Assembly: GCA_028823235.1 (NCBI GenBank)
Contig: JAPKBW010000002.1
Location: 124,001-188,000 of the forward strand
Origin: Longimicrobiales bacterium
GTDB lineage: Bacteria; Gemmatimonadota; Gemmatimonadetes; Longimicrobiales; Gaopeijiaceae
DNA: 64,000 nt
Reading direction: 5' to 3'
The notes beneath the pieces were generated by a model. That model searched no databases, was not told the DNA's origin, and saw only the letters and a program-made list of their open reading frames with translations. The translations under genes and the position numbers were made by a program. This document shows positions 50,601-59,657 of the stretch, piece by piece; position 1 is the first letter of the stretch; each line of letters begins with the position of its first letter.

Positions 50601-51245
50601 ATGCCAACATTGAGACAGGCCCTTGCCGACCTCCGCGCGGAGAAAGACGCCGCCCGAGATCCGGTCGCGACCACGATCATGAACCGTGCGACCGAACAGC
50701 TCGCAGCATCGCCGATCATGGAGTCGGTGGTGAAACAGGGAGACACGGCTCCGATGTTCGCGCGACCCGACCTCGACGGGGAGACTGTGCGCCTGCGCTC
50801 CGTGCTCAAGGACGGTCCGGCCATCGTGAGCTTCTTTCGGGGCCGTTGGTGACCCTACTGTCACCTTGAGCAGGTTGCTCTCCAGGAACTGCTGCCGGAA
50901 TTCACCAAGAAGGGAGCCACCCTTCTGACTCTCTCCCCTCAGCTCGAACCGTATGCGCGGAAGTGGGTCGAGGAAGACGGTGTCGAATATCCGGTACTCC
51001 TCGATCTCGGCCTCGGTGTGGCGCGCGACTACGGCTTGACCTTTGAACTCGGCGCCGAGTTGCGAAGCCTCTATACAGAGAGACTCAAGATCGACCTCTC
51101 CCGCTTCAACGGCGACCAGTCATGGGAACTCCCCATTCCTGCGACCTGTGTCATTGATACGGACGGGACTGTGGTCTACGCCTCTGTCCATCCGGACTAT
51201 ACGCAGCGCCCCGAACCGTCTGAGATCCTTCAGGCGATCCCATGA
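50601..51245 (+). CDS. Selenocysteine-containing peroxiredoxin-like protein (UGA read as Sec)
   Basis: One frame runs from ATG 50601 to 51245 (214 residues), broken only by a TGA at 50850-50852. Before it stands A-I-V-S-F-F-R-G-R-W; after it P-Y-C-H-L-E-Q-V-A-L-Q-E-L-L-P-E-F. This is exactly the peroxiredoxin-like family segment R-G-x-W-C-P-Y-C, with the first Cys replaced by the UGA (U84, resolving C87). Similarity continues to the end (L-P-I-P-A-T-C-V-I-D-T-D-G, H-P-D-Y-T-Q-R-P-E-P). A SECIS-like hairpin lies 12-35 bases after the TGA. It should reduce peroxides or thiols via a selenol in the cytoplasm. A nonsense mutation is the alternative, but the frame beyond is undecayed. Confidence 0.88.
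50864..50886 (+). promoter_or_regulatory. Bacterial SECIS-like hairpin of the peroxiredoxin-like gene
   Basis: GAGCA (50868-50872) and TGCTC (50876-50880) form a stem closed by the loop GGT. An outer CCT/AGG pair (50864-50866, 50884-50886) extends it past a small internal loop. The loop begins 20 bases after the UGA, and a GGU apical loop is the feature SelB contacts in the E. coli fdhF element. The element lies inside the coding frame, as bacterial SECIS must. Confidence 0.72.
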
Positions 51246-58755: not shown

Positions 58756-59310
58756 ATGATCGAGACCGAGCGCCTCATCCTGCGTGAACTGGACGAAGAA
58801 GACTTCTCGGCGGTCCATGCATACGGCTCTGATCCTGAGGTCGTCGAATACCTCCCGTGGGGGCCGAACACGGCCCAGGTGACGCAAGATTTCATCGAGC
58901 GGAACCTGGAGCGCGCCGCCGCCGAGCCCCGACTCGAATTCGTGTTCGCAGTCGTGCCCAAGGAAACGGACGAACCCGTGGGGTCAGTGGGGATCTACCT
59001 ACCATCTGCGGATGCCCATCTCGCGATGCTGGGATACGCCTACGGAAAGCCGGCATGGGGCAAGGGATACGCGACGGAGGCGGCACTCGCGATGGTCGCG
59101 ATGGGCTTCGACATGCTGGGCCTGAAGCGAATCTGGGCGTCGTGTGACCCTGACAACACGGGGTCTGTCGGGGTGCTCCGGAAGTGCGGCATGACCCTCG
59201 AAGGCCAGCTCCGGAGGGAACAGAATATACGGGGGGCCTTGAGGGATAGCATGATTTGGGGGATTCTCGAGCTGGAATGGAGAACTTTCCTCGAACGGAG
59301 CAACAGATGA
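58756..59310 (+). CDS. GNAT-family N-acetyltransferase (RimJ/RimL-like)
   Basis: 184 residues. The family start I-E-T-E-R-L-I-L-R-E-L-D-E-E-D leads to V-G-S-V-G-I-Y-L, L-G-Y-A-Y-G-K-P-A-W-G-K-G-Y-A-T-E-A (acetyl-CoA pyrophosphate loop), A-S-C-D-P-D-N-T-G-S-V-G-V-L-R-K-C-G-M, all typical of the Acetyltransf_3 group that acetylates protein N-termini or small amines. It lies 10 bases after surE, and its stop overlaps the start of the selenoprotein gene (ATGA). Confidence 0.92.
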   Translation: MIETERLILRELDEEDFSAVHAYGSDPEVVEYLPWGPNTAQVTQDFIERNLERAAAEPRLEFVFAVVPKETDEPVGSVGIYLPSADAHLAMLGYAYGKPAWGKGYATEAALAMVAMGFDMLGLKRIWASCDPDNTGSVGVLRKCGMTLEGQLRREQNIRGALRDSMIWGILELEWRTFLERSNR

Positions 59311-59657
59311 CTCGCAGTCTCGAGTGGCGCTACCACCGCCCTGGCTGAACAAGCTGCAAACGCACTCAAGAGTTTCTTGAGCAGAATCAAATCCCCGATG
59401 GTGAGATCCAGAGCACCGGTCGAGACCCCATTGAGGGGGCCGCGGCCCTCGGAGTTCTCGACGGCGTCACGCACCTGCATGTGGCAAAAGGAAAGAAGTC
59501 GCTCTATGTCGACCTTTCCCAGGAGCGGCCGTCTGATGACGAACTCCTCGCTCTTCTCCTTGGACGATCCGGTAAGCTGCGGGCTCCGACCTTCAGGTCG
59601 GGCGATCGTCTGATTGTCGGTTACAACGCCGATCTCATGGCCGAAACGATGCTCTGA
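59307..59657 (+). CDS. Selenocysteine-containing ArsC/Spx-like thioredoxin-fold protein (UGA read as Sec)
   Basis: From ATG 59307 (overlapping the GNAT stop) the frame reads M-T-R-S-L-E-W-R-Y-H-R-P-G, then TGA at 59346-59348, then T-S-C-K-R-T-Q-E-F-L-E-Q and on to a stop at 59657, 116 residues in all. The ArsC/Spx fold has its C-x-x-C exactly here (C-T-S-C-K/R), so UGA occupies the first Cys (U14, C17). The end, L-R-A-P-T-F-R-S-G-D-R-L-I-V-G-Y-N, is a normal family C-terminus. A seven-pair hairpin lies 17-33 bases after the UGA. It is probably a cytoplasmic selenol reductase. Ordinary gene finding would miss the whole gene. Confidence 0.87.
59365..59381 (+). promoter_or_regulatory. Bacterial SECIS-like hairpin of the ArsC-like gene
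   Basis: CTCAAGA (59365-59371) pairs perfectly with TCTTGAG (59375-59381) around the loop GTT. The loop starts 23 bases after the UGA and begins with G, meeting the usual bacterial SECIS criteria for spacing and apical loop. It is in frame and does not interrupt the protein. Confidence 0.72.

Follow-up and report, generated by a model that had tools for sequence, protein, structure and literature searches.

Described relatives and layout of the locus

Selenoproteins of the ArsC/Spx type with a UxxC motif have been catalogued before. A 2008 analysis of Global Ocean Sampling data described 42 sequences as 'Arsenate reductase 2' (cd03032, UxxC; PMC2398784), and a 2026 review lists NF041106 as an arsenate reductase-like protein with UxxC, citing the ocean survey for it (PMC13188914). 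An earlier arsenate reductase selenoprotein family from the Sargasso Sea has UxxS, as opposed to the UxxC of NF041106, and the deep-Sep paper does not mention the NF041106 family. For ArsC, Cys12, Arg60, Arg94 and Arg107 are reported to be necessary for arsenic resistance (PMC5155266). In Spx, Arg92 adjoins the CxxC motif (PMC7235348).

We analysed a 64,000-nucleotide stretch of DNA, hereafter the window, from a Gemmatimonadota genome (3.14 Mb in 90 contigs, 97% complete). The features discussed below are listed with the evidence for each in brackets.

50601–51239, + strand: second selenoprotein, coding part; peroxiredoxin/ResA-like, U-P-Y-C, UGA at 50850–50852
58756–59310, + strand: GNAT acetyltransferase ORF, overlapping the selenoprotein start as ATGA (PF13302, 129 bits)
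59297–59300, + strand: GGAG, likely ribosome-binding site, 6 nt 5' of the ATG and within the end of the GNAT ORF (sequence)
59307–59657, + strand: selenoprotein gene, ArsC family (seleno)protein (NF041106), 116 aa plus stop TGA (NF041106.1, PF03960, dN/dS, AlphaFold2)
59346–59348, + strand: in-frame UGA, codon 14, almost certainly read as selenocysteine in U-T-S-C (UGA in homologues, alignment to Spx CTSC)
59365–59381, + strand: putative bSECIS hairpin, stem 59365–59371/59375–59381, loop GUU 59372–59374 (pairing, covariation)

The first-pass annotation had described an overlooked ArsC/Spx-like selenoprotein gene here, and its account of the layout was accurate. The start codon (ATG at 59307) shares bases with the stop of the GNAT gene, 13 codons precede the TGA, and the frame then runs open from TSCKRTQEFLE onward to the terminator TGA at 59655–59657, giving a coding span without terminator of 59307–59654 (+). 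The read-through product is MTRSLEWRYHRPGUTSCKRTQEFLEQNQIPDGEIQSTGRDPIEGAAALGVLDGVTHLHVAKGKKSLYVDLSQERPSDDELLALLLGRSGKLRAPTFRSGDRLIVGYNADLMAETML, and its UGA stands where a CxxC motif has its first Cys (U14-T-S-C17). Many homologues are also preceded by GGAG-like runs. As had been predicted, ordinary ORF finding misses the gene, with only 13 codons before the UGA and no in-frame ORF of at least 60 aa listed after it. Despite the stop codon that seems to disrupt it, the gene is intact, and ordinary gene callers do not see it.

Profile searches with the read-through product supported the ArsC/Spx-like label. The product scored 113.3 bits against NF041106.1, "ArsC family (seleno)protein" (cut-off 85; residues 5–109 on profile positions 1–105 of 107), and gave a weak match just over the cut-off to PF03960 (ArsC; 28 bits, cut-off 24). 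The UxxC motif of NF041106 is present as U14-T-S-C17, and both columns are invariant in 36 aligned members. With the same whole length and the same motif, the gene has no essential difference from NF041106 (ArsC_rel_Se_1) and belongs to it. 'Arsenate reductase 2' is likewise an ArsC/Spx-type UxxC selenoprotein, matched to our gene by its description and by the 2026 citation. Because NF041106 and the published catalogues already describe such proteins, the gene adds a member to a catalogued family and does not found a new one, and it opens no new category. We consider it very probable that it encodes a genuine selenoprotein in which a hairpin directs selenocysteine to codon 14, most likely a thiol-disulfide oxidoreductase.

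Conservation of the UGA and the downstream hairpin

A protein search of one collection, with one genome per species, found UGA at the site in 24 of 24 homologues. When 395 genomes of the phylum were searched with NF041106, 67 matches exceeded the cut-off in 66 genomes, and each of the 67 contained exactly one in-frame TGA. No Cys version of the family occurred among the 24 homologues or the 67 phylum matches over the cut-off, a pattern suggesting that the protein needs selenium as such. Three proteins of the same order (L082, L083 and L085) were considered as Cys forms and rejected, as they belong to a different ArsC subfamily (31–39 bits). A match in genome G379 (L081) was also rejected as a selenoprotein, since its CTTC motif is intact, with the TGA upstream of it. 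Another sequence, L086 (G116:C2:179516-179686), keeps the UGA and hairpin and departs abruptly from the family past about residue 59, possibly owing to a frameshift, a deletion or an assembly error.

Coding constraint extends to both sides of the UGA, as judged from comparisons with 11 homologues. Downstream of it, selection is purifying, dN/dS was approximately 0.07–0.19 where dS was computable, and differences fell mostly at third codon positions (20/8/53 by position against one homologue, L002). Differences upstream of it were also mostly at third positions.

The host genome encodes the machinery expected of a bacterium that makes selenoproteins, SelA, SelB, SelD and tRNA-Sec. It contains a single tRNA-Sec with a strong score (70.9 bits, gathering threshold 47) and, according to ARAGORN, a UCA anticodon, together with a SelA N-terminal domain, and SelB (324.6 bits) and SelD (387 bits), both over their cut-offs. 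The SelD protein (L042; C10:120945-121871 in its own genome) carries an in-frame UGA of its own, in the GAGUACK of the SelD catalytic site, and is itself a selenoprotein. Across the phylum, the SelA N-terminal domain was found in 60 of the 66 carrier genomes compared with 267 of 395 overall (Fisher one-sided p = 1.7e-6, uncorrected for relatedness of the genomes). The full SelA model, applied to the remaining six carriers, gave four matches over the cut-off and one partial match just below it, bringing the total to 65 of 66; one carrier, G339 (89% complete), had no SelA match even with the full model. The first-pass annotation had made its reading depend on two points, the presence of this machinery and the occurrence of Cys at the UGA position in homologues. 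Both were found, the latter in distant homologues such as Spx.

The hairpin (CUCAAGA-GUU-UCUUGAG) starts 16 nt downstream of the UGA with its loop at 23 nt, exactly as had been reported. We assessed it in 43 distinct 42-nt homologue segments with 500 shuffles. In the 7-bp stem, 96% of cells were paired, compared with 86% with shuffled partners, double-sided changes numbered 27 cells versus 5.7, and 0 of 500 shuffles matched the observed pairing or covariation score; sequence relatedness inflates this comparison, and the shuffle figures are not probabilities. The pairing signal was lost when the partner was shifted by 1 to 3 columns. One stem pair is GC, UA, CG or AU depending on lineage, and another is AU or GC.

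Some of these compensatory changes cross codons in different arms of the stem. Where CAA (Gln) is replaced by CGA (Arg), its partner CUU changes to CUC (both Leu), and where ACU is replaced by ACG (both Thr), its partner GAG (Glu) changes to GCG (Ala). A Gln-to-Arg replacement in one arm accompanied by a Leu CUU-to-CUC change in the other is strong evidence, of a kind that sequence alone can provide, for SECIS function. Furthermore, the GUU loop is invariant in homologues, although its G is a third codon position.

We also resampled synonymous codons for the same peptide using local codon usage (4000 draws per sequence). For the window, only 0.1% of draws produced all seven pairs plus the loop G, and for 39 of the 43 distinct homologues the share was below 5%. 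The hairpin thus exceeds what chance would give. Three of the four exceptions (L052, L055 and L067), all with CCAGGAGUUCCUGG, have a shifted stem with loop AGUU and G at position 2; L052 was the one folded.

The published bSECIS model specifies a loop of 3–9 nt with G in the first two places, a stem of 4–16 bp, a spacing of 16–37 nt and an MFE of at most −7.5 (PMC13188914). The window hairpin fits it, with a 3-nt GUU loop (G first) that starts 23 nt after the UGA, a 7-bp stem and −8.8 kcal/mol for the 51-nt stretch. Folded alone, this 51-nt stretch is not exceptionally stable (z = −1.2). The signal for the hairpin comes from conservation and covariation and not from single-sequence stability. 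An Rfam search of the window and the SECIS region gave no family match; bacterial SECIS elements differ widely from gene to gene (PMC13188914).

Family f7, genus g73, contributed 13 further, somewhat weaker NF041106 matches, each with one TGA (two of them were read). In the same genus, L077 and L078 represent a divergent NF041106-like group that keeps the UGA. This group must rely on a different SECIS, since the CAAGAGUUUCUUG hairpin sequence is absent there.

Together, the conserved UGA, the Sec machinery and the covarying hairpin support the earlier proposal of a genuine Sec gene, and selenocysteine insertion at UGA 14 is almost certain as far as comparative sequence analysis can tell. That translation really ends at this UGA, whether in a pseudogene, through a sequencing error or because two short ORFs lie here side by side, is extremely improbable. 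In favour of a stop, a 13-codon ORF is implausible as a gene, UGA normally terminates translation in this genome, and the support for read-through is computational. Against it, dozens of genomes share the UGA and none exchanges it for TAA, TAG or Cys, and purifying selection after it, together with the covarying SECIS, already contradicts termination. We give next to no credence to decoding as another residue, for instance Trp through a code change or a suppressor. The open frame would accommodate it and nothing else speaks for it, while the full Sec machinery and a SECIS are present, Spx and other relatives have Cys in the column of the UGA, and the gene's own terminator is likewise UGA.

Fold, active site and relation to arsenate reductases and Spx

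An AlphaFold2 model built from the 36 aligned members had a mean pLDDT of 92 and a pTM of 0.84. Foldseek placed Spx first among PDB structures, then ArsC-related proteins, with glutaredoxins next, although the global TM-score of the predicted model to Spx was modest (approximately 0.54). A profile search against the PDB also recovered Spx (E = 1e-10) and aligned U14-T-S-C17 with C10-T-S-C13, in agreement with the earlier assignment of the UGA to the first Cys of the redox motif. Residues W7, Y9, R11, P12, G13, U14, C17, F23, L24, G62, G89, R92, A93, P94, G99 and G105 are invariant in the 36 sequences. Nearly all members have LRAP, and the residue before the conserved Pro is Ala in 36 of 36.

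From this fold and motif, the protein is most likely a Sec/Cys (U14-C17) thiol-disulfide oxidoreductase. In the proposed mechanism, SelB and Sec-tRNA(UCA) would recognise the GUU-capped hairpin 16 nt past the UGA, and UGA 14 would be decoded as selenocysteine to give a 116-aa protein of the glutaredoxin/ArsC fold. The active site, U14-x-x-C17, would lie at the start of helix 1, with P94 in the usual cis-Pro position. Sec14 would attack the substrate, Cys17 would resolve the selenenyl-sulfide, and a thiol system would then recycle the enzyme.

Membership in neither the arsenate reductases nor Spx is supported. A selenium-dependent arsenate reductase with true ArsC function is quite unlikely. 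The published name, 'arsenate reductase-like', and the PF03960 match point towards it, and glutaredoxin-coupled ArsC (TIGR00014) has in common with the window protein the PF03960 fold family and the N-terminal catalytic Cys/Sec position. However, the product scores only 14 bits against TIGR00014 (cut-off 106.05), and the ArsC triad Arg60/Arg94/Arg107 is not conserved in it. The Arg94 position is invariant Ala93 (36 of 36), and the Arg107 position, the arginine of a G-R-P motif, is probably Tyr, Phe or His, as assigned by motif matching. Recurrent ars genes are also absent from the conserved neighbour clusters (approximately 54 loci). Since the protein lacks the ArsC arginines and its gene has no ars genes beside it, 'ArsC-like' is not to be taken to mean arsenate reductase.

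The G-R-P arginine is present in L079, a separate ArsC-type UGA protein from genus g8 of the same family, which scores 99.7 bits against TIGR00014 (cut-off 106). L079 keeps LLRTRE, QRP and GRP, highlighting residues that the NF041106 group lacks. Together with L080 (and G333 and G085, genus g8), it has U-T-T-C and keeps the arsenate reductase-like arginines. This group possibly represents a true Sec-dependent arsenate reductase with UxxC.

It is unlikely that the protein is an Spx-like redox switch that contains selenium and binds to RNA polymerase. Spx (PDB 6ghb, 1z3e, 3gfk) is the best PDB match by both sequence and structure, and shares with the window protein its fold, a C-T-S-C equivalent to U-T-S-C and a VGYN-type motif. 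The window protein differs in having Sec for Cys10 and another middle segment, predicted to be a beta-hairpin, and the Gly that lines up with the middle region of Spx is not kept in every member. Neither the protein nor its family has the Spx RRPI motif with Arg92 beside CxxC, the Arg92 counterpart being the invariant Ala. Scores were likewise far under the Spx cut-offs (39 bits against TIGR01617, Spx/MgsR, cut-off 75; 24 bits or lower against Spx models, cut-off 123). It is very doubtful that the protein is an Spx-related transcription regulator that ties RNA polymerase to the redox or selenium state through a Sec14-Cys17 selenenyl-sulfide switch, one that much of the Gemmatimonadota would keep obligatorily as Sec.

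Neighbouring genes and a second selenoprotein

The GNAT gene adjoins the oxidoreductase-like gene at only 6 of approximately 54 loci, all in close relatives, so the acetyltransferase is probably not a functional partner of the selenoprotein. SurE-like and beta-lactamase-like neighbours, like GNAT, recur in close relatives only and give no functional lead.

The second selenoprotein in the window has FFRGRWUPYC around its UGA. This single UGA is kept in strong, full-length matches of the genus (55–71% identity). The protein passed no NCBIfam cut-off, so its family may be uncatalogued. In several relatives, its gene lies approximately 5–9 kb from the ArsC-like gene. Elsewhere in the window's own genome, 2 kb upstream of SelD (C10:118267-118734), lies the gene of a redox protein distantly homologous to the second selenoprotein; it has one in-frame TGA.
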